Of a DNA stretch of 64,000 bases, positions 19,429-63,437 are shown piece by piece. Position 1 is the first letter of the stretch. Each line of letters begins with the position of its first letter. This DNA is from an uncultured archaeon (lineage in GTDB: Archaea; Thermoproteota; EX4484-205; JAAOZP01). The notes below the pieces were generated by a model that saw nothing but the letters and a program-made list of their open reading frames with translations, was not told where the DNA came from and did no database searches. The stretch lies in assembly GCA_938045545.1 (NCBI GenBank), contig CALIBN010000015.1, forward strand, positions 1 to 64,000, written 5' to 3'. The translations under genes and the position numbers were made by a program.

Positions 19429-20508
19429 ATGGGGCCGCGGGAAAGGGTAAAAAATGTTCTTAAAGGAAGAATGCCCGACAGGATCCCTTGGATTATATAC
19501 TCAAGCCATCTTCCAAGGGGGAGCTTTGAGCGCAGGATGAGAGACATGGGGCTAGGGCTTGAGGAAAGGTGCAGCATATATAGGGCGTCGAACCCGAACG
19601 TCCGGATAGAGAGTAGAACAGTAGGCGACTACGTCTACACGACTTACCGTACTCCTGTTGGAGAGCTGAACTCTAAGACGCGGATTGGAATGAGGTTTCA
19701 GTTTCCAGGAGGCTCATGGACTGTTGAGCACCCGGTGAAAAACATGAACGACATCAAGGCTTTAATATTCATGATAGAGGATACTGTCTACGAACCCGAC
19801 TATGAAACATATGTCAGGATTAAAGAAGAGCTGGAGGAAGACGGTATTGTTACTGTTTGGGCTGACTACACGCCCCTTATGAAAACAATCGTCAGATACA
19901 TGGGTTTCAAAACCTTCGCGGTCATGTATCGGAGAAACAGGGAGATGATAGAGGAGCTGATTGAAACACTGGACAAGAGTTTTCTAAAAATGTATAGGAT
20001 AATAGCTGACTCGCCGGCCGAGATAGTCAGAGTGGGAGACAACATTGACTCAATGCTCATATCTCCAAGCCTCTTCCAGAAATACTGCCTCCCTTATTAT
20101 AATAAGTATGCAGATATTCTTCATGAAAAAGGAAAGACTGTTGTTTCACACATGGATGGCAGGCTTAAAGCGCTTAAAAACCTTATAGGTGAAACAAGGC
20201 TTGACGCTATAGAGGCTTTTACACCCCCACCTGGGGGAGACCTTTCGCCGAAGGAAGCCAGGGAAGCCTGGGGGAATAAAGTAGTTTGGATGAACTTTCC
20301 AGAGGAAGTGTTCCTCAGAACGCCTGAAGAGATAAGGAGTTTCACAATAAGGCTGCTCGAGGAAATAGCTCCAGGAGAAGGTTTTATCATAAGCGTTACG
20401 GAAGATGTTCACCCGGATCATTACAGGAAGGGTATTGAAACAGTGACTGAGACGCTATACAAATACGGCGGACTGCCTATAAATCCGCCATTAGCCTGTG
20501 ACCAGTAG
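19429..20508 (+). CDS. Uroporphyrinogen-decarboxylase (URO-D/MtaA) superfamily protein
   Basis: GPRERVKNVLKGRMPDRIPW N-terminus and VSHMDGRLKALKNLIGETRLDAIEAFTPPPGGDLS. Confidence 0.85.
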   Translation: MGPRERVKNVLKGRMPDRIPWIIYSSHLPRGSFERRMRDMGLGLEERCSIYRASNPNVRIESRTVGDYVYTTYRTPVGELNSKTRIGMRFQFPGGSWTVEHPVKNMNDIKALIFMIEDTVYEPDYETYVRIKEELEEDGIVTVWADYTPLMKTIVRYMGFKTFAVMYRRNREMIEELIETLDKSFLKMYRIIADSPAEIVRVGDNIDSMLISPSLFQKYCLPYYNKYADILHEKGKTVVSHMDGRLKALKNLIGETRLDAIEAFTPPPGGDLSPKEAREAWGNKVVWMNFPEEVFLRTPEEIRSFTIRLLEEIAPGEGFIISVTEDVHPDHYRKGIETVTETLYKYGGLPINPPLACDQ

Positions 20509-21688: not shown

Positions 21689-22477
21689 ATGAAGATATTG
21701 TATGAATTTATTCCCAAAGCGAACTTTATAGATTTAGCAGAAGAAATAAAGGATCTAGTGGACGGTTTAAACATTACCGATAGCGCAGGAGGGATACCTG
21801 CTCCCAGTGCTACTGCAGTAGCCTGCGCGCTTAAGATAAAGTATCCTCAAAAAATAATGATTCCCATGCTGATTACTAATTATAAGGGACCAGTCGAAAT
21901 CGCTGCTGTAGCAAGTGCTTGCGAAGCCTTAGGGATTTATGGAATGGTACCTGATCCGGGAGACGCTCCCAGATACGGATATCCAATAAGGACAAGAAAA
22001 GACGGAACCTGTGAAATTCTTTCTGATAAAGAGGAGATTGAAAGATTTAGACGCGCAACCGGTCCTGCGGAAGAAGTTAGGGAATTTCTGCGTAATATCG
22101 TAAAGATAAAAAAGTTAAAATTAGGCTGTCTCTTAACTAGTCGTAGACCTACGGAAGAGGCTATTACACGCATAAGGGATGCTTGGGATTTCTGCCTTTT
22201 TTTGCGCTTAGAAAAGACCTCTTTGCCAAAGTTAAAAGAATTAGCTTCGGAGTGTAAAAATTTAGGAAAACCCATTTATCCGTATTTTGTAGTTGAGACG
22301 CCTAAAAATAAAAAGATTCTGGAAAGAATCGGATGGCCTTCTACAACGACCTTAGAAAAAGCAGAGGAATTCGCAGCCGAACTACAAGGTATTGTAGACG
22401 GCATAATCTCTACTTGCCTAGGAGATCTGGAGGCAGATAAAAAGCTACTTGATAAACTACAGAAATTCAGGGAATAG
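21689..22477 (+). CDS. Methylenetetrahydrofolate reductase-like protein
   Basis: 262 aa TIM-barrel-type protein with VDGLNITDSAGGIPAPSATAVACALK and MLITNYKGPVEIAAVASACEALGI; adjacent to fhs. Confidence 0.65.
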   Translation: MKILYEFIPKANFIDLAEEIKDLVDGLNITDSAGGIPAPSATAVACALKIKYPQKIMIPMLITNYKGPVEIAAVASACEALGIYGMVPDPGDAPRYGYPIRTRKDGTCEILSDKEEIERFRRATGPAEEVREFLRNIVKIKKLKLGCLLTSRRPTEEAITRIRDAWDFCLFLRLEKTSLPKLKELASECKNLGKPIYPYFVVETPKNKKILERIGWPSTTTLEKAEEFAAELQGIVDGIISTCLGDLEADKKLLDKLQKFRE

Positions 22478-22763: not shown

Positions 22764-24530
22764 TTGCCATCATGGGAAAAGGAGGCGTTGATAATGCCGG
22801 TGAAAAAGAGCTGGCCAGTGCCTAGTGATATTGAGATCGCTTACAAAGCCGAGCTTTACCCGATTAAGAAGGTTGCAGAGCATATTGGGATTCTAGAGGA
22901 AGAGCTTGACAGTCACGGGAAATATATTGCTAAGGTTGATTACAAAAGCATTCTCAACAGGCTGAATAATAGGCCCCGCGGCAAATTGATTATCGTAACG
23001 GCAATCACCCCCACGCCCCTCGGCGAGGGGAAAACAACCGTTTCAATAGGCTTGGGCCAAGCCTTCCATGAAAGGGGTTTAAAGGTTATTAACACTCTGC
23101 GCGAACCCTCTAAGGGCGTTACCTTTGGAGTAAAAGGCGGTGCAACTGGCGGCGGCTACTCCCAAGTATTACCAATGGATAGGATTAATCTTAATTTCAC
23201 GGGAGACATATCGGCCGTGGAGATTGCCCATAACCTTTGTGCAGCAGCCATAGATGCTAGCATACTTCACGGAAATCCTTTAAGCATCGACCCCCTGTCA
23301 ATCGAATGGCCCTATTGCATGGATGTGGAGGCTAGGGCTCTAAGACGAGCCGTCATAGGATTAGGAGGAAGGTCAAACGGTTACCCTAGGGAGACGCGTT
23401 GGAGCATAACTGTGGCAACTGAAACGGCAGCCATCCATGCGTTGGCCACTGGGTTGGAAGACTTAAGGAAAAGGCTTGGAAAAGCCGTCGTCGCCTACAC
23501 CTATAGTGGGAAACCAGTAACGTGTGAAGAACTTGGAGTGGCCGGGGCCATGGCCGCTCTACTCGTGGAAGCCATTAAGCCTAATCTAGTTCAATCCACA
23601 GAAGGCCACGCCGTTTTAGTCCATGGATTTCCGTTTGCAAACATAGCGCACGGGACCAACTCGATCATAGCTGATTTAGTGGCTTTGAAGCTTGCGGATT
23701 ACGTTATCTGCGAAACCGGGTTTGGCTCTGAATGCGGCTTCTCCAAGTTCTGCGACATTGTATGCCGCCAGTCTCCCGAGATAAGGCCCGATTGCGCCGT
23801 TATCGTCTGCACGATTAGAGCACTTAAAGAACACGGCGGTGCCTTCCTGCTTCGCCCAGGAATGCCCTATAGGAAAGTCAAGAGGGCGGCTGAAACGGAA
23901 AATCTTCAAGCGGTCGAGAAAGGCTGCGAGAATCTGGCTAGACACATAGAAATAGTCCATAAATACGGTATTCCAGCCGTAGTTGCCATAAACAGGTTTA
24001 TCACGGATACCGATAGCGAGATAAGGCTGGTGTGTGAAAAAGCCATCGAGGCTGGCGCCGATGGTGTTGCCGTCGTAGATCCCTGGTCTAAAGGAGGCGA
24101 GGGTTGCCAGGAACTTGTTGATAAGGTTCTTGAAGCGATGAAGAAGCCGCGTGAGCTGAAGTTTCTTTATCCCGCTGAAGCCCCTATCAAGGAGAAAATC
24201 GAGACCATAGCTACTGAACTCTATGGGGCAGAAGACGTGAAATATTCGCCTGAAGCAGAGGAAAAAATAGAGTTTTACAACAGCCTTGGATACGACCGGT
24301 TTCCTGTAAACATGGCTAAAACACCCCTCTCCCTTTCTCACGACCCGCTCTGGAAAAACGTCCCTAAGAACTACACGTTTCCAGTCAACGACATACTCGC
24401 CTTCGTTGGAGCCGGTTTCCTTATCCCGATATGTGGCGAAATACAGTTGATGCCAGGCCTCCCGAGAAAACCCGCCTTCCTAAGGATCGATGTGGAAACG
24501 GAAACTGGAAGGATAAGAGGCCTCTTCTAG
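22764..24530 (+). CDS. fhs: Formate--tetrahydrofolate ligase (true start probably 22794)
   Basis: TAITPTPLGEGKTTVSIGLGQA P-loop, EPSKGVTFGVKGGATGGGYSQVLPMDRINLNFTGD. Confidence 0.95.
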   Translation: MPSWEKEALIMPVKKSWPVPSDIEIAYKAELYPIKKVAEHIGILEEELDSHGKYIAKVDYKSILNRLNNRPRGKLIIVTAITPTPLGEGKTTVSIGLGQAFHERGLKVINTLREPSKGVTFGVKGGATGGGYSQVLPMDRINLNFTGDISAVEIAHNLCAAAIDASILHGNPLSIDPLSIEWPYCMDVEARALRRAVIGLGGRSNGYPRETRWSITVATETAAIHALATGLEDLRKRLGKAVVAYTYSGKPVTCEELGVAGAMAALLVEAIKPNLVQSTEGHAVLVHGFPFANIAHGTNSIIADLVALKLADYVICETGFGSECGFSKFCDIVCRQSPEIRPDCAVIVCTIRALKEHGGAFLLRPGMPYRKVKRAAETENLQAVEKGCENLARHIEIVHKYGIPAVVAINRFITDTDSEIRLVCEKAIEAGADGVAVVDPWSKGGEGCQELVDKVLEAMKKPRELKFLYPAEAPIKEKIETIATELYGAEDVKYSPEAEEKIEFYNSLGYDRFPVNMAKTPLSLSHDPLWKNVPKNYTFPVNDILAFVGAGFLIPICGEIQLMPGLPRKPAFLRIDVETETGRIRGLF

Positions 24531-24684: not shown

Positions 24685-25593
24685 ATGTTCAGGTTTAAGC
24701 AGGAGCAGAAAATCTACGATATCGCTGGCGTGAAGGTTGGCGGTCAGCCGGGTCAACTACCTACTGTAATGATAGGAAGCATATTCTATGGCAAACAGAA
24801 AATATTTGAGGACGAGAGGACTGGAGCATTCTCTAAAGAAAAGGCTGAAGAGCTGTTGAATAAGGAGAAGGAAGTATCTGACAAAACCGGTAATCCTAGG
24901 ATTGTAGACGTATGCTGCACTTGGCCCCAAGCTTTTGGGAAACTCATAGAGTTCGTGGCCGACACGATCGACGGTCCCTTCGCTATAGATGGAACAACTG
25001 AGGAGGCGAGGATTGCAGGAGCCAAATACGTTGGTGAAGCCGGTTTATCTGAGCGCGTCGTCTACAACTCGATAATGCCGCATATTAAAGAGGCTGAGAT
25101 ATCTGCGATCAGGGAGGCGAGGATTAAATCCGCCGTCTTACTAACGTATAACGCTAAAAACCCCACGATAGCCGGGCGTATGCAGATGCTTGACGAGCTT
25201 TTAGCCTTAGCCTCAAAAGCAGGCGTCGAGAGAATCCTAGTTGATACGACTGTTCTCGACATCCCCGACCCAGGACCGGTAAGCAAAGTCGTCTACCTGG
25301 TGAAGGAGAAATACGGTCTACCGGCCGGGGCCGGAACGCATAACGCAGTCCAGAGGTGGAACAGGATGCGCAGACTAGATAGAACACTTTTCTCCATTGC
25401 GAGTAGCGTAGCCGACGTGGCTCCCATATTCATGGGGGCGAACTTCGTAATATATGGGCCGATAGAGAATGCTTCCAACGCGTATTTCCACTGTGCATTG
25501 GCCGACGCCTATGTGGCTTACAGCGTGCGGCAGGAGTTTGGAATAAGACCATTAACTAGCAACCATCCGCTGTTCAAAATATTCAAAGAGTAG
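24685..25593 (+). CDS. mtrH: MtrH-family methyltransferase (tetrahydromethanopterin/THF S-methyltransferase subunit H)
   Basis: MFRFKQEQKIYDIAGVKVGGQPGQLPTVMIGSIFYGKQKIFEDERTGAFSKEKAEELL, PFAIDGTTEEARIAGAKYVGEAGL, ERILVDTTVLDIPDPGPV. Confidence 0.93.
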   Translation: MFRFKQEQKIYDIAGVKVGGQPGQLPTVMIGSIFYGKQKIFEDERTGAFSKEKAEELLNKEKEVSDKTGNPRIVDVCCTWPQAFGKLIEFVADTIDGPFAIDGTTEEARIAGAKYVGEAGLSERVVYNSIMPHIKEAEISAIREARIKSAVLLTYNAKNPTIAGRMQMLDELLALASKAGVERILVDTTVLDIPDPGPVSKVVYLVKEKYGLPAGAGTHNAVQRWNRMRRLDRTLFSIASSVADVAPIFMGANFVIYGPIENASNAYFHCALADAYVAYSVRQEFGIRPLTSNHPLFKIFKE

Positions 25594-25715: not shown

Positions 25716-26384
25716 TCAATCCCTGTGGTTCGAAAGGGGTTTCGTCTCCGCTTCGCGAAGTATCCTAGTCTTCCCCTGCTCAACTATGATTCTTCCCTCC
25801 TGGAAAAGACGGATCCCTTCCACCAAGACCTCACCCTCAGCCTCTTGAACCCTCCTCTTCAAAGACTCCTCATCGTCATCCTCCCTCACTTCAACAGCCT
25901 TCTGCAATATTATTGGTCCAGCATCCATTTTCTCATCAACGAAGTGGAGAGTACAGCCTGTAATCTTCACGCCGGATTCAAGCACCGCGCGATGGACGTT
26001 CAGGTCCCAACCTGGAAAGGCGGGTAGAAGAGAAGGATGAATGTTCATAATCCTATTCCTAAACTTTTTCACGAACTGGGGGCTTAAGAGCCTGTTATAG
26101 CCTATGAGCAGTACGAGGTCAACCTTCCTACGCTCAAGCTCTAGGGCGACCTCCATATCGTACTCCGCAGGATCCTTACCCTTAGGATCTATGAATATCG
26201 CTTCTATACCGTTCCGTCTCGCCCGCTCCAGCGCATACGCATTCTTCTTATTGCTTATGAGGCAGACTATTTCAGCGTTTAACCTCTTGTGTCTTATCGC
26301 CTCCAAGATGGCCTCCATATCGGTGGCGCGGGTTGATGCGAGTATGCCTATCCTAAGCAACACTACGAGGCCTCGGAGGCGCAT
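25716..26384 (-). CDS. Formyltransferase, PurN-like (10-formyl-THF dependent)
   Basis: IMNIHPSLLPAFPGWDLNVHRAVLESGVKITGCTLHFVDEKMDAGPIILQKAVEV. Confidence 0.85.
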   Translation of the reverse strand: MRLRGLVVLLRIGILASTRATDMEAILEAIRHKRLNAEIVCLISNKKNAYALERARRNGIEAIFIDPKGKDPAEYDMEVALELERRKVDLVLLIGYNRLLSPQFVKKFRNRIMNIHPSLLPAFPGWDLNVHRAVLESGVKITGCTLHFVDEKMDAGPIILQKAVEVREDDDEESLKRRVQEAEGEVLVEGIRLFQEGRIIVEQGKTRILREAETKPLSNHRD

Positions 26385-27196
26385 TCAACCAGATTCCGTA
26401 TGATGGTCGCGACCGTCACCGGGCCCACTCCACCTGGAACCGGTGTTATCGCAGACACTTTTTGGGAAACGCTTTGAAAATCCACATCCCCCACGAGAGT
26501 GCCTTCGACGAAGCTGGTTCCAGCATCGATCACTACAGAACCCTCACCGACCATTTTGTCGGTTATGAGCCTCGGGACACCGGTTGCAGAGATTAATACA
26601 TCCGCTTTCAATGTCTTCTCGCTCAGGTTTTTAGTCTTGATGTGGCAAACGGTTACTGTTGCCATTCGTGAGGTAAGCATTGCAAAAAGGGGCCTTCCTA
26701 CGAGTATGCTGTTGTTCACGATGACGACGTCGGCACCTTCTACGTTAATTCCATACCATTCCAAAATCCTGATCACAGCGTTTGCCGTCGCCGTGGGCTT
26801 GGCTTCCAAGCCGGATAACAATCTTCCCAGGTTTAATGGATGCAGGCCGTCAACATCCTTCTTAATGTCTAAGGCTTCCAATACGTTTAGCGTCGACACG
26901 TTTTTCGGAAGGGGTAGTTGAACAACTATCCCATGAACACCCGTATCCTTATTCAATTCCTTTATGAGCGAGATGAGCTCGGCTTCAGATGGATCGTTAA
27001 GCTCATGCACCACCGCTTTCCCCCCTACAGAGTTGCAGGCTTTAACCTTCATTTTAACGAAAGAATCCTGTGCCTTTGAACCCGAGGCCTTTATGATGTG
27101 CAGCGATGGCGTGAAGCCCAGTTTCTCGATCCTCGCCTTAGCCTCAGCTAGAATCGCGTCGGCCACGGGCTTTCCGCTCAATATCTTAGCCGCCAT
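26363..27196 (-). CDS. folD: Methylenetetrahydrofolate dehydrogenase/methenyl-THF cyclohydrolase
   Basis: VHGIVVQLPLPKN, KKDVDGLHPLNLGRLL, VVIVNNSILVGRPLFAMLTSRMATVTVCH, ITPVPGGVGPVTVATIIRN. Confidence 0.95.
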   Translation of the reverse strand: MAAKILSGKPVADAILAEAKARIEKLGFTPSLHIIKASGSKAQDSFVKMKVKACNSVGGKAVVHELNDPSEAELISLIKELNKDTGVHGIVVQLPLPKNVSTLNVLEALDIKKDVDGLHPLNLGRLLSGLEAKPTATANAVIRILEWYGINVEGADVVIVNNSILVGRPLFAMLTSRMATVTVCHIKTKNLSEKTLKADVLISATGVPRLITDKMVGEGSVVIDAGTSFVEGTLVGDVDFQSVSQKVSAITPVPGGVGPVTVATIIRNLVECASEAS

Positions 27197-27406: not shown

Positions 27407-27500
27407 TGCTTCGATTACATTGCTCCATCAGTCAAAATTTTATAAACTATTAGTCCCGGCGATGAGTTTTAAAATATGAATTTCTAGTATTCATGAAACG

Positions 27501-27510
27501 TTTTTATAGG
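27501..27510 (+). promoter_or_regulatory. Putative TATA box for the 5-FCL/membrane fusion gene
   Basis: TTTTTATAGG centred about 26-28 nt upstream of the ATG at 27533, spacing consistent with leaderless archaeal transcription. Confidence 0.5.
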
Positions 27511-27526
27511 GAACTCTTTTCACAAT

Positions 27527-28882
27527 TTGAGAATGGGCGAGGAATCCGGCAACGCTAAGAATGAATTCAGGAAATTAGCAAGAGAGAGGATTCTAGCGAT
27601 GTCGGAACAGCAGAGGAAGAATAAGAGCTTGAAGGCAGTTTCCAACCTTAAAAGTCTAGATGAGTTTTCGAGAGCAAAATGTGTCATGGTGTATGTTTCA
27701 AAGAAGGATGAAGTCGATACGATCGGGCTCATTACTGACATGTTGAAATCCGGTAAAAGAGTTGCAGTACCCTTCGTAGATGAGGAAAGAATGGAGCTGA
27801 TTCCCTGTGAAATATCAAACCTCGAAGAACTAGCTGTTGGAACATTCGGTGTGATGGAGCCGGATCCCGGGAATTTGAGAATCGTTAACACTGAGGAAAT
27901 AGACGTCGTTGTCGTCCCAGGTATGGCTTTCGACAGAAATTGCAACAGGCTTGGCAGAGGGAAAGGTTACTTCGACAGGTTTTTAAAGAGACTTAACGGA
28001 GGGAAGAAAGTAATCGGTTTAGCCTTCTCAGAACAGGTTTTTGACAGCATACCGGTTGAAGAGAACGATGCGAAGGTCGACATCGTGGTTACGGAATCCA
28101 GCATCATAAGGTGCGACGCTGGAGGGCCAAGATCTGGTTTAAGCAGGAAAAAATTCGACGTGCATAAACTTGCCACCTCTTCCCTGTTCATGGCACTCTT
28201 CATCGTGCTTAGGGCAGTCCCAACCTTCCCAATCATAGGGGTACCTGGAGGAAGCTTCCCGGTTTCAGATGTCATTCTGCCGCTTTACGGAGTCTTGCTC
28301 GAGCCTGTTCACGGCGCCACCGTAATCCTCTTAGGAACAATCCTAGGTTTCTTAATAAAGCCTCCCAGGTTTCTTTACCTGGACTTCCTACCGCCGCTGG
28401 TTAACACTTTGACAGTAAGTCTGCTCTGGAGGAGGAAGACGTGGTTAGCACTCCTCATCTATGTTTCCGTATTAGCCGTTTTCATGACAGGGCCTTTTAG
28501 CCTGATACTTATACACCTCGACCTTCCAGGCTTAGAGGCAGATTTGCCATTCCACTGGCTGCACCTCACAGCAATACCCGTCTCCCTGATTCTCATCAGG
28601 CTTGGAAATTTTAAACATAAGGCTGATCCAATTGCATTGAAGTTTTCAGGATGCGCTTTACTCGGAACCATGGGGCAACACTCTATGGGTAGTGCACTAT
28701 TTGGATACGTGTTCGGTCTAACCGGGATGATAAATAGAGAGGGGTTTGAGAAAATCTGGTATACGGTATTCTGGATATATCCTATAGAGAGGATGCTTCT
28801 AGTCTTGGTGAGCACGCTGGTTGGAGTCCCGGCCATCCGAGTATTGACAAGGATAATATGGAGGCCTCAGAACCCATCGTAA
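27527..28882 (+). CDS. 5-formyltetrahydrofolate cyclo-ligase fused to a C-terminal polytopic membrane domain (ECF transporter S-component-like)
   Basis: N-terminal 5-FCL motifs (RILAMSEQQRKNKSLKAVSNL, VVVPGMAFDRNCNRLGRGKGYFDRFLKRL); after about residue 205 a multi-TM domain LFMALFIVLRAVPTFPIIGVPGGSFPVSDVILPLYGVLLEPVHGATVILLGTILGFL... in one open frame. Confidence 0.88.
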   Translation: MRMGEESGNAKNEFRKLARERILAMSEQQRKNKSLKAVSNLKSLDEFSRAKCVMVYVSKKDEVDTIGLITDMLKSGKRVAVPFVDEERMELIPCEISNLEELAVGTFGVMEPDPGNLRIVNTEEIDVVVVPGMAFDRNCNRLGRGKGYFDRFLKRLNGGKKVIGLAFSEQVFDSIPVEENDAKVDIVVTESSIIRCDAGGPRSGLSRKKFDVHKLATSSLFMALFIVLRAVPTFPIIGVPGGSFPVSDVILPLYGVLLEPVHGATVILLGTILGFLIKPPRFLYLDFLPPLVNTLTVSLLWRRKTWLALLIYVSVLAVFMTGPFSLILIHLDLPGLEADLPFHWLHLTAIPVSLILIRLGNFKHKADPIALKFSGCALLGTMGQHSMGSALFGYVFGLTGMINREGFEKIWYTVFWIYPIERMLLVLVSTLVGVPAIRVLTRIIWRPQNPS

Positions 28883-30195
28883 GGCTCGCCCGTCCATATC
28901 GGCCTTGCCTCCCCAACGGTGAAAACTGAGCCCGTAACAAGTATTCTACCCTCTTCCCCGGTGCACGACAAGGCTCGAGCCACCGCCTCCTTAACAGTCG
29001 GCTCAGAACTGTATTTAGCATTCAGATCCTTCAAAACATCCGCCATCCTCTCTATCGGGAGAGCTCTCCCCATGACGCCGTGCTCAGTTAAGATGAACTC
29101 ATCCGTGATCCTCGCAACAGATCGGAGAATCTTATCGTATTCCTTATCCGAGGAAATACTGACGACTGTTTTAAACCTGGCTCCCGGCAGCATTTCCTCT
29201 ATGCTCGACGACAACGCTTCAGCAGCCGCCGGATCCTTTGCGCAATCCAATATGACTAGTGGTCTTTGACTAACGGGCTCCAGCCTCCCCGGCCACACAA
29301 TGTTAGCAAGACCCCTTCTTATGGCATCCTCATTAAAGTCCGATTTACCAGTTAGCTCGGAAAACCTTAGATAGCTCGCTATGGCCGTCGATACGTTCGT
29401 CGCCTGAAAACTCCCCCTGAGCGAAACCTTAAGGTTCTTCAAAAGCGTCTCCCCAAGGTCAACATCTAAAAGCATCCCGGTTAAGTCTGATCTTAAAACT
29501 CTGTGCTTAACATCCCTGGATACCAAGGTGAGCTCGGAGCCCAATTCCATGCAGCGTTCCTCTATGACTTTAAGCGCTGAACCCGAGCAAGCCGTTACGG
29601 TGGGCCGCCCCGGCCTTATTATGCCTGCTTTCTCAAAAGCTATCTTCTCAACAGTATCACCCAAGTGCTTCATATGCTCTAAAGAGACGTTTGTTATGAC
29701 TGAGAGCATCGGGTCGCATGCGTTTGTCGCGTCCAGTCTACCTCCCATACCCACCTCAACGACAGCCACGTCAACGTTTTTCACCGAGAAATACTCATAT
29801 GCCATTGAGACGTTGCACTCGAAAAAGGTTGGAAAGCGTCCTAACCTTCTCGAAACCTTTTCACCAGCCTCTTTAACCACCTCATAGGTCTCCACGACTT
29901 CCCTCCTGGTTATTTCACAGCCATCCACGGCTATCCTCTCGGTGAACCTGCATAGGTGCGGCTTCGTGAACATTCCAACCTTAAGACCCTCCTCGCGTAG
30001 GATTGAGCTTATCATGGTGACAGTGGAACCCTTCCCATTAGTACCCCCTACGAGGATCACAGGATAGTCCTGCTCCGGGTTTCCAAGCTCGTTCAGAACC
30101 CCCTTGACAACATCCAAGCCTAGCTTTATCCCCCTCAGCTCGTAGAGCTCCTTTAACACCCGCACGTACTCAGCGTCATCAGTCCAAGCACTCAA
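28867..30195 (-). CDS. folC: Folylpolyglutamate synthase/dihydrofolate synthase
   Basis: ILVGGTNGKGSTVTMISSILREEGLKVGMFTKPHLCRFTERI, VEVGMGGRLDATNACDPMLSVITNVSLEHMKHLGDTVEKIAFEKAGII. Confidence 0.94.
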   Translation of the reverse strand: MSAWTDDAEYVRVLKELYELRGIKLGLDVVKGVLNELGNPEQDYPVILVGGTNGKGSTVTMISSILREEGLKVGMFTKPHLCRFTERIAVDGCEITRREVVETYEVVKEAGEKVSRRLGRFPTFFECNVSMAYEYFSVKNVDVAVVEVGMGGRLDATNACDPMLSVITNVSLEHMKHLGDTVEKIAFEKAGIIRPGRPTVTACSGSALKVIEERCMELGSELTLVSRDVKHRVLRSDLTGMLLDVDLGETLLKNLKVSLRGSFQATNVSTAIASYLRFSELTGKSDFNEDAIRRGLANIVWPGRLEPVSQRPLVILDCAKDPAAAEALSSSIEEMLPGARFKTVVSISSDKEYDKILRSVARITDEFILTEHGVMGRALPIERMADVLKDLNAKYSSEPTVKEAVARALSCTGEEGRILVTGSVFTVGEARPIWTGEPYDGF

Positions 30196-59989: not shown

Positions 59990-61054
59990 TCAACCATTGC
60001 ATTCACCGTAATAATTCATGAAGTCCTCGAACGCTGTGCAGACTGCGTCTATGTTTTCAAGCGGAACATCCGCGTGGATCTCGGAATACATCATTAAGCC
60101 GCCTTTCTCAGAACCCAGTTTGACAACAGCCTCCTGTATATGGCTCCTGATTTTTTCAGGACTGCCAAAGGGCACTATGAGCTGCCGGTCTATGTCTAGG
60201 TCGATGCAAACCCTTCCCTTAATCTTCTCCCTTATATTGTCTATCCCGTTAACCCTATCCTGAATGTTTAAAACTGAAACCCCGGCTTCAATCAGGGCAT
60301 CCGCCACCTCCATTATGTGACCGTCAGTATGCAGGTAAACCCTTATTCCTGATCTCCTAACCCTCTGGAATATCTTTCTGTATGAGGGGTAGATGAACCT
60401 TCTGAAGGTCTTGACGCTGACAGGCATCCTGTCTTGAAGACCCAGGTCATCCCCGAAGGAAACCATGTCAACCTTGAGCCTGATGAGCCTCTCGACCAGG
60501 GCTAGATTATAGTCAGTCAGCATCTCTATTAGTTTTTCAAGCTGACCGGTGTTTCTAACGAAGTCAATCATTAGGTTTTCAAAGCCCCGAAGATAATAGA
60601 GTCTTTGAAAGAAGAAGCCGTGAGGCATGCTTCCGACCACGATATCATCAGTGTTTCTCGCTCTATCTATCCTCTCCTCAATCGCGTCCCAAGGGTCTAC
60701 TCCACCACCCTCCTGAACAATGCCTCTCTCCGGGTCTGGCAGACTGTAGTGCACTAGGTCAGCCCAATCCTCCAAAGGATGTTTCACAACCTGCCCCTGG
60801 AGTCCGCTTATATTGAACCTCCACAAGCATCCGAAGGCATCTAGAACCTCTCTCCCCCTGACCCTGGCTCCGAAATCATTGAAGTTAACACTCCCTCTTT
60901 TAAAATCTGGGAAAAGCCTAGTATGCTTGGCAAGCAGGTCCTCAAGCTTCTCTCTATACTTGTTCCAAGCTGTTGGGAAAACTCCTAGCCTACAAGGGAT
61001 CCATCCGCAGCCATTCATGTCTATGACTCTAAGCTTCTTCTCCCTGATGCTCAA
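59990..61054 (-). CDS. URO-D/MtaA superfamily protein
   Basis: VDMVSFGDDLGLQDRMPVSVKTFRRFIYPSYRKIFQRVRRSGIRVYLHTDGHI. Confidence 0.88.
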   Translation of the reverse strand: MSIREKKLRVIDMNGCGWIPCRLGVFPTAWNKYREKLEDLLAKHTRLFPDFKRGSVNFNDFGARVRGREVLDAFGCLWRFNISGLQGQVVKHPLEDWADLVHYSLPDPERGIVQEGGGVDPWDAIEERIDRARNTDDIVVGSMPHGFFFQRLYYLRGFENLMIDFVRNTGQLEKLIEMLTDYNLALVERLIRLKVDMVSFGDDLGLQDRMPVSVKTFRRFIYPSYRKIFQRVRRSGIRVYLHTDGHIMEVADALIEAGVSVLNIQDRVNGIDNIREKIKGRVCIDLDIDRQLIVPFGSPEKIRSHIQEAVVKLGSEKGGLMMYSEIHADVPLENIDAVCTAFEDFMNYYGECNG

Positions 61055-61158: not shown

Positions 61159-62268
61159 GTGTTGAGAAACCCGGATATAACCAGGCTGCTTAAAGTCCTT
61201 CTGAGAGAGGGAGAGCCCGATAGAGTGCCCTTCTACGAGCATTTTGTAGACAACGAGGTTATTGAGGCTTTAACCGGTAAGCCGGTGTCTAAGGCTTTAG
61301 CCGAAGGAGGCTTAAGCTCAGAGAAATACCTGGATATCCTGGTTGACTTTTATGCCAGGCTTGGATACGACTATGTTCCAATGGAGGTTCCCCCCAAACT
61401 TCCTAGGACGAACATTCTTCAGACGAACGATGTTGCTTATCTTTCCCGTGGGAAAAGGACTTGGGAGGATGAGAACAGGGGTGTGATTGAGACAATCGAG
61501 GATTTTGAAAAATATCCTTGGCCTAACGCGGATGAGGCGCTGGATTTTTCAGTATTTGAAAGGCTGAGGAGGAAACTGCCTGAAGGCATGGGTGTTGTTG
61601 GAGGCGTTGCAGGAGGGTTCTTCGAGCATGCGAGCTGGCTTATGGGGCTTGGAAAACTCTGTAGGGCTGTGCACCTAGACAGGAGGCTTGTTGAAAAAAT
61701 GTTCAGCAGGGTCTCCTCGCTCATTCTTGCTTTAGATGAGACAATAGTTAGAGAGGGGTTTGTTGATGCTCTTAGAATGGGTGACGACTTGGGCTATAAG
61801 ACAGGCACATTCCTGGCGCCTAGGATTCTGAGGGAATACGTTTTCCCAAACTACAGGAGGCTGGCCGATTTGGCACATGGGCGGGGGCTTCCCTTCATAA
61901 TACATTCCTGTGGAAACCTGTATACTCCTGATGAAACTGGGAGAACAGTGATGGACGACCTTGTAGAGAGCGTCAGGATAGATGCCAAACATTCTTTCGA
62001 GGACAACATAATGCCGGTATACGAGGTTAAGGAGAAGTATAGGGGGAAGATAGCGGTTTTGGGCGGTGTAGATATGAATAAGCTTGTTCAACTGCCGGAG
62101 AAAAACCTAAGGGAGCATGTTAGGCTAATAATTAAGAAGTGTGCGCCGGGAGGCGCCTATGCTCTAGGCTCTGGAAACACGATAGCTAACTATGTGCCTT
62201 TAGAAAACTATCTCGCGATGCTTGACGAAGGCTTTAGAAGAGGAACATACCCGATAGAGATAAGTTGA
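61159..62268 (+). CDS. URO-D/MtaA superfamily protein with HxC...C motif
   Basis: EGEPDRVPFYEHFVD, MGDDLGYKTGTFLAPRILREYVFPNYRRLADLAHGRGLPFIIHSCGN...IIKKCAPGGAYALGSGNTI. Confidence 0.9.
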   Translation: MLRNPDITRLLKVLLREGEPDRVPFYEHFVDNEVIEALTGKPVSKALAEGGLSSEKYLDILVDFYARLGYDYVPMEVPPKLPRTNILQTNDVAYLSRGKRTWEDENRGVIETIEDFEKYPWPNADEALDFSVFERLRRKLPEGMGVVGGVAGGFFEHASWLMGLGKLCRAVHLDRRLVEKMFSRVSSLILALDETIVREGFVDALRMGDDLGYKTGTFLAPRILREYVFPNYRRLADLAHGRGLPFIIHSCGNLYTPDETGRTVMDDLVESVRIDAKHSFEDNIMPVYEVKEKYRGKIAVLGGVDMNKLVQLPEKNLREHVRLIIKKCAPGGAYALGSGNTIANYVPLENYLAMLDEGFRRGTYPIEIS

Positions 62269-62279
62269 GAAACATGCTA

Positions 62280-63437
62280 TTAAGTCTTTAAAATCTTGTC
62301 TAAGTGTTTGAAGTTCTCCTTCCTGATCGGATACTTTCCAACCTTTTTAGCATATTCAACCTCGTACCTTAAGAGTTCAGGAGGAACGTTGGCATATGTT
62401 TCGCCACCGTTGTCGAAAGCATAGCCACCACCAGCTGCAGCGTGAAATATGCATTTCTCAACCTCAAGCTCAATGTTTTCAAAAGATCCGTTGACTAGAA
62501 CCCTCCAGTCAGCGTTGCCGTTGAAGAACACTTTCCCCTTAAATGCTTCAGCAATCTTTTTAATATCGTTCTCAACGCCCACATCGGCCTCATTTATCCT
62601 GTAAATGTTTACAAGTATGCCCGTTATGTGGTCCATGTGAGAATCCATGTGCAAGTAACGATATTCAGTACCGTGCCGCTCGTAAAGCCTCAGGTTATAA
62701 GGCAGCGTGAACTCCTCGTACATATCCTTGCTCAAGTAGCCCGAATGATCGTCGGCCAGGCCGAGGCTCCCTGGTCCAGAACCAGAAATCTCATAGTAAT
62801 ATTCCTGAAGCTGGTTGAAGGTTTCCTCCAGTTTTCTGAAAAGCCTATGCATGTCGCTGGGACTCTCGTAGAGCCAGCGGTACAGTTTCTCGGGACCAGT
62901 CAACGAGCCTGCAGCTGAAACCGGTGGATGTATCTGGAGCCTGCCGCCGACTGGAAGACCCTCATAGTTTTTCCTGACAAGCTCCCTAAACTTTTCAAGC
63001 TTCTCATAGTAAGCCTGAATACCCCTGTGGCGACGAGGGTCAGGAACCTCCAGCCTATCGATATCCTCAAGGGTCTTAATCCGGGGGATTATCCATGGGC
63101 TGAGCCAAGGGTTTCTCTCATCCGGCATTTCAATCTTGCAGTCGAAAACAATGCCTTCAGATACGGCTCCGAGGTCTAGATGCACTCGTATTTCTGTCAA
63201 ATCATCCTTAAGCCATCTGAGCCTCCATTTCAACCCTTTCACCTGAGCATCCAGCATTATACTCATGTCGTTGTAATATTCGGCAAAAGTATAGTCGAAG
63301 AGCCTAGCATAATATGGGCCTCCAAGCCCTATGACCACCGGAACCCTGTCAGACTCCTTGAACTGGGCAGCTTCCTCCAAACGCTTCCTATTCTCCTCTA
63401 GAACGCTAGAATACTTGGCTCGGTTGAAGGGCTCCAT
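62280..63437 (-). CDS. URO-D superfamily-like protein
   Basis: GLADDHSGYLSKDMYEEFTLPYNLRLYERHGTEYRYLHMDSHMDHI; GGGYAFDNGGETYANVPPELL. Confidence 0.78.
   Translation of the reverse strand: MEPFNRAKYSSVLEENRKRLEEAAQFKESDRVPVVIGLGGPYYARLFDYTFAEYYNDMSIMLDAQVKGLKWRLRWLKDDLTEIRVHLDLGAVSEGIVFDCKIEMPDERNPWLSPWIIPRIKTLEDIDRLEVPDPRRHRGIQAYYEKLEKFRELVRKNYEGLPVGGRLQIHPPVSAAGSLTGPEKLYRWLYESPSDMHRLFRKLEETFNQLQEYYYEISGSGPGSLGLADDHSGYLSKDMYEEFTLPYNLRLYERHGTEYRYLHMDSHMDHITGILVNIYRINEADVGVENDIKKIAEAFKGKVFFNGNADWRVLVNGSFENIELEVEKCIFHAAAGGGYAFDNGGETYANVPPELLRYEVEYAKKVGKYPIRKENFKHLDKILKT

Follow-up and report, generated by a model that had tools for sequence, protein, structure and literature searches.

The window analyzed here, a stretch of 64,000 nucleotides from an archaeon belonging to Candidatus Brockarchaeota, carries a gene in which a 5-formyl-THF cyclo-ligase (5-FCL) is joined within one open reading frame to a membrane domain that is probably a divergent ECF S-component. 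We consider it fairly likely that the product acts as a reduced-folate S-component of a group II ECF importer, has the 5-FCL on its cytosolic N terminus, and supplies H4F to a folate-auxotrophic archaeon. The substrate, the transport and the kinetic benefit of the fusion are what we infer here, with 5-formyl-THF, or reduced folates more broadly, as the most likely substrate. The link to folate is drawn from context, namely the 5-FCL fusion, the surrounding island of THF genes, and the location of orthologues beside a DHPS-like gene.

According to the proposed mechanism, folate outside the cell would be bound by the membrane half, which would then dock on the shared EcfA-EcfA-EcfT module, encoded at another place in the genome, and topple, letting the folate go into the cytosol. 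There, the tethered 5-FCL and ATP would convert 5-formyl-THF to 5,10-methenyl-THF for use by FolD, FTHFS, PurN and GlyA, while FolC would polyglutamate and retain the folate. The fusion would place the activating (trapping) enzyme at the entry point. A further proposal, vectorial cofactor capture, is that released 5-formyl-THF meets the tethered cyclo-ligase and each import cycle ends in active, trapped folate; we put it forward tentatively, as plausible but rather doubtful.

The fusion gene and its cyclo-ligase half

An uninterrupted open reading frame on the forward strand (27527-28882) starts with TTG and encodes 451 aa. The following features were assigned to it and its upstream region:

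27500..27509, + strand: putative TATA-like promoter box GTTTTTATAG, located 24-33 nt 5' of the ATG, by consensus resemblance only
27533..28882, + strand: fusion gene, 5-FCL plus ECF S-component-like domain, 449 aa from the ATG (451 aa from the TTG at 27527)
27557..28096, + strand: 5-formyl-THF cyclo-ligase domain, residues 11-190 (PF01812, TIGR02727)
28097..28153, + strand: linker, residues 191-209, low in conservation and mostly disordered
28154..28861, + strand: membrane domain, residues 210-445, ECF S-component-like (PF12822, AlphaFold, Foldseek, loop charges)

The in-frame ATG at 27533 (Met3) is the likely true start, preferred because related genomes share a GTTTTTATA box 24-33 nt ahead of it. 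This TATA-like box is conserved in the window and in four related loci, and its resemblance to the consensus makes it a putative promoter element. An Rfam scan around the fusion gene returned no match, the THF riboswitch included.

Judged by its sequence, the N-terminal half is a 5-formyl-THF cyclo-ligase, with ATP-dependent conversion of 5-formyl-THF to 5,10-methenyl-THF as the predicted activity. It covers the full PF01812 profile (E 3.8e-43, 148 bits against a cut-off of 27), matches TIGR02727 with 163.9 bits (cut-off 84.9), and aligns with the solved 5-FCLs 1sou and human MTHFS 3hxt. Residues K11, R15, E62, R144, K146, Y148, and D150 align with human MTHFS, and the positions matching human K10, R14, E61, R148, Y152, and D154 are all kept; the relative G007 carries K146M. 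The K, R, E, and GRGKGYxD positions are those which we take to form the ATP/folate-binding active site of MTHFS.

The AlphaFold model of the whole protein consists of two folded domains with a disordered linker between them, pLDDT falling below 50 at residues 198-210; with a pTM of 0.55, the domain arrangement is not readable from this model. Sequence identity across the linker is 12-56%, compared with 64-82% for the 5-FCL domain and 55-91% for the membrane domain.

There is close to an even chance that the 5-FCL half is a housekeeping enzyme that clears the 5-formyl-THF made by GlyA, the fusion serving only to co-express the two halves and anchor the enzyme to the membrane, with uptake and activation not functionally coupled. 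5-formyl-THF is a by-product of GlyA (PMC1971073), and the glyA gene adjoins the fusion in G007. The fusion gene is also the only 5-FCL match in its own genome, and the variable, disordered linker gives no sign of a fixed interface. Against this reading, a standalone 5-FCL fills the role in other archaea, such as G009, and housekeeping does not call for a fusion to an S-component. The housekeeping reading is not incompatible with folate import.

The THF gene island and the folate supply

The fusion gene is surrounded by genes of THF metabolism:

22764..24530, + strand: formate-THF ligase, FTHFS (NF010030, 695 bits, above the cut-off)
24685..25593, + strand: MtrH-family methyltransferase (PF02007, 1.7e-85; NF002142 above the cut-off)
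25716..26384, - strand: PurN-type formyltransferase, 10-formyl-THF-dependent (TIGR00639, 194 bits)
26363..27196, - strand: FolD, methylene-THF dehydrogenase/cyclohydrolase, divergent from the fusion and a conserved neighbour
28867..30195, - strand: FolC, folylpolyglutamate/dihydrofolate synthase (TIGR01499, 325 bits)

The neighbour order FTHFS, MtrH-type methyltransferase, PurN, FolD, FolC is conserved. FolC is convergent with the fusion gene, the 3' ends overlapping by 16 bp, and adjoins it in all related loci that extend far enough.

Some further genes of the window belong to the description of this region. The four URO-D-family proteins (PF01208) encoded at 19429-20508 (+), 59990-61054 (-), 61159-62268 (+), and 62280-63437 (-) may belong to methyl-group metabolism; some members of PF01208 are corrinoid methyltransferases of the MtaA type. 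Conserved upstream of FTHFS is a 262 aa protein (21689-22477, +) that matched neither Pfam at E<=1 nor NCBIfam at 0.01, had no relative in the PDB, and by eye recalls methylene-THF reductase-type barrels. The MtrH-family gene lies directly downstream of FTHFS and is conserved in four related loci; its product scores 265 bits against the model of MtgA, a corrinoid:THF methyltransferase, below the cut-off of 550. De Anda et al. invoke an undescribed protein that passes methyl from a corrinoid protein to H4F in Brockarchaeota (PMC8065059), for which the MtrH-family protein is a candidate.

H4F-based C1 metabolism (methylotrophy, formate assimilation) has been proposed for Brockarchaeota (PMC8065059), and our literature search found no account of their folate supply. 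DHPS, HPPK, beta-RFAP synthase, and MptE gave no match in any genome of the genus, and DHFR none in any genome of the order, control genomes being positive; absence was tested family by family, for these five. Taken alone, this absence is weak evidence, because many further genomes of the phylum likewise lack DHPS. Seen together with a complete complement of THF-using genes, it points to salvage. Since salvage of oxidised folate relies on DHFR (PMC1971073), the absence of DHFR favours reduced folates. These results suggest that, as far as the known routes tested go, the genus can neither synthesize folate nor reduce it.

EcfA, EcfA, and EcfT are encoded in a row in the organism's own genome, on a contig (G000:C11) other than that of the fusion, and four PF12822-like proteins were found in the same genome. 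A shared EcfA-EcfA-EcfT module located apart from several S-components is the group II ECF layout.

Standalone orthologues of the membrane half occur in Bathyarchaeia and relatives (for example in L008, L039, L041, L045, and L071-L081) and share the signature D286/F287/H346/QH384-385/W411/R422 with the fusions. Of the 15 phylum loci examined, 13 have them next to a TIGR00284 DHPS-like pterin-binding gene (PF00809 plus PterinBD-DUF4346), a pairing seen in five families and in differing orientations; not all standalone orthologues have a pterin-related neighbour. The same loci, together with L009, show this subfamily repeatedly adjoining TIGR00284 genes, and the two may form an archaeal uptake pair for pterin or folate.

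The DHPS-like neighbour of the standalone orthologues would also fit an S-component that carries a pterin or a pABA-containing precursor instead of intact folate. We regard this as unlikely, given that no DHPS, HPPK or MptE that could use such a precursor was found in the genus of the window and that the fusion partner acts on intact 5-formyl-THF.

The membrane half and its likeness to ECF S-components

Residues ~210-445 form a hydrophobic, polytopic domain of ~240 aa. The window domain matches PF12822 (ECF_trnsprt) with 7e-7 and 29.9 bits against a cut-off of 30.7, the score rising to 32.8 bits in the genome search and to 34.5 bits in G007; among 20 family members, 13 match this profile (E<=0.1). 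AlphaFold modeling of the domain with 20 homologues gave a pLDDT of 88 and a pTM of 0.85. The best nine Foldseek matches in the PDB are all ECF S-components (TmRibU, PanT, FolT, BioY), at probabilities of 0.69-0.98 and TM of 0.3-0.5, with E only 0.18-0.38 and none below 0.001. No solved S-component was reached by sequence in profile and single-sequence searches.

Positively charged loops lie at the N terminus, around 275-305 and 361-371, and at the C terminus, the others being neutral or negative. Such charges probably fit six main helices with both ends inside, which is the S-component topology and would place the 5-FCL domain in the cytosol; under this reading, the short helix 288-301 must be an additional, non-spanning element. 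At the position of the AxxxA EcfT-docking motif of helix 1, the fusions have SxxxA, and the motif occurs, strict or relaxed, in some relatives only; among S-components it is only relatively conserved (PMC11109136).

An earlier note on this DNA had likened the hydrophobic region to ECF substrate-binding subunits, reserving the possibility that it resembles no transporter family. The HMM matches, the modeled fold, and the topology back the likeness, and the model with its pLDDT of 88 appears S-component-like. The note's interpretation is supported in part; the comparison with ECF families that it proposed ended near the PF12822 cut-off and short of the FolT one. Similarity to the FolT family (TIGR04518) amounts to 5e-6 and 26.4 bits against a cut-off of 60, which was exceeded in none of 300 phylum genomes. 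Sub-threshold matches to this model are common among other archaeal S-components, and FolT membership was rejected on the missed cut-off and the non-specific signal below it. What stands of the folate uptake proposed in the note is drawn from gene context and the missing folate-synthesis genes; the sequence does not bear it out.

As the searches reached no solved S-component, the FolT binding residues are not mappable by alignment onto the fusion. The residues considered were the folate-binding ones of EfFolT (Arg26, Lys36, Asp64, Phe80, Thr81, Arg142, and Lys145), where Arg26 is located at the end of helix 1 and Arg142 in helix 6 (PMC4525288). R229, D286, and R422 are analogues of the FolT site by position, not by alignment, and G007 has Ser at R229, the positional analogue of the pterin-binding Arg of FolT.

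The sequence does not reveal the substrate, and sub-threshold matches to the riboflavin S-component family PF07155 (10 of 20 members) and to thiW (2 of 20) would suit an S-component for an unrelated vitamin, such as riboflavin or thiamin, that was fused by accident. The retention of both the fusion and the THF gene order at 57-86% protein identity and the linkage of orthologues to a pterin-binding gene make this improbable.

Very unlikely, in our view, is a folate sensor or plain anchor that has the S-component fold and takes no part in transport. Receptors are known in which S-component folds are fused to soluble, signalling domains (PMC11109136), and the AxxxA motif of the fusions is imperfect; however, a Pfam scan found no signalling domain in the fusion protein, its model has no N-terminal helix H0 of the 5TMR-type receptors, the standalone orthologues have no soluble domain at all, and the genome encodes an ECF module.

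Distribution of the fusion and comparison with known systems

Of the 8 genomes of the genus, all of them metagenome assemblies that are 70-93% complete, 5 have the fusion whole or in traceable form. It is intact in four, the relatives being G004 (86% identity), G005 (82%), and G007 (58%), and is split over two contig ends in G003, where both pieces span the domain junction. A sixth genome retains just the C-terminal end of the fusion at a contig start, and two less complete ones (70-77%) gave no match. The recurrence in G004, G005, G007, and the broken G003 excludes chance and assembly error. Exact peptide patterns, scanned across GTDB, identified as close relatives the Candidatus Brockarchaeota MAGs GD2_1, DRTY-6.bins.80, and JZZ.bins.4, and also SJ3.Bin56, labelled Thaumarchaeota.

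Outside the genus, the fusion was found in none of the ~390 other genomes of a 400-genome phylum sample (E 1e-30); in other families of the order, the halves occur as separate copies or not at all. No fusion was detected elsewhere in the GTDB-wide pattern scan, in plasmids (membrane domain search), or in phages. Two matches from a phage collection that seemed to extend beyond the 5-FCL domain proved to be ordinary standalone 5-FCL ORFs. A literature search found no paper combining 5-FCL, an ECF transporter, and a fusion, the closest one being that on receptors whose S-component folds are joined to signalling domains (PMC11109136), and to our knowledge no S-component had been reported fused to a metabolic enzyme.

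The single frame joining 5-FCL to hydrophobic polytopic sequence, as read in the earlier note, is upheld by the same open frame in relatives and by the PF01812 match, and all same-genus relatives showing the junction are fused. The note had weighed this against relatives encoding two separate genes; these exist at greater distance. That the fusion is an artefact of an assembly error, a missed stop, or two products made via an internal start can hardly be credited: the more distant relatives have separate genes and the window has GTG at the junction, but the codons there read GTG/GTG/GTG/GTA/GTT across relatives, no conserved internal start codon was found at the junction in the window and the relatives compared, and the open frame recurs in the four genomes where the fusion is intact and in the one where contig ends break it. 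The artefact reading was rejected on these grounds.

If the genus is indeed unable to make folate and the membrane half is a folate S-component bearing its own 5-FCL, one molecule may do both folate uptake and activation, and the H4F-based C1 metabolism of these hot-spring archaea relies on folate released by neighbours. The fusion would also define an archaeal folate/pterin S-component subfamily and offer a concrete system for studying whether toppling is possible for an ECF S-component with an enzyme attached, and whether the substrate is channelled or trapped by such an arrangement.

With 5-FCL/MTHFS (1sou; human 3hxt; YgfA), the fusion shares the whole domain, the active-site positions, and scores above the family cut-offs; these are normally soluble single-domain enzymes, whereas here the enzyme is the N-terminal domain of a membrane protein. 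The standalone Bathyarchaeia-type S-components have 35-42% identity and the same residue signature, but are unfused and mostly located beside the TIGR00284 DHPS-like gene instead. The helix H0 and fused signalling domain of 5TMR-type receptors are both missing. FolT (EfFolT 4z7f; LdFolT2 5d0y; complexes 4huq and 7nnt) has the S-component fold found among the best structural matches, and the likeness extends to weak HMM similarity, a probable cytosolic N terminus, a shared ECF module, and, by position, arginines at the end of helix 1 and in helix 6; FolT measures ~165-175 aa, while the membrane domain of the fusion has ~240 aa, an extra short helix, and a fused 5-FCL. Finally, ThfT of Streptococcus is a known ECF S-component that imports reduced folates (PMC9712650); it is bacterial and not fused, and the fusion protein is likened to it not by sequence but by its proposed job of bringing in reduced one-carbon folates with the help of a shared ECF module.
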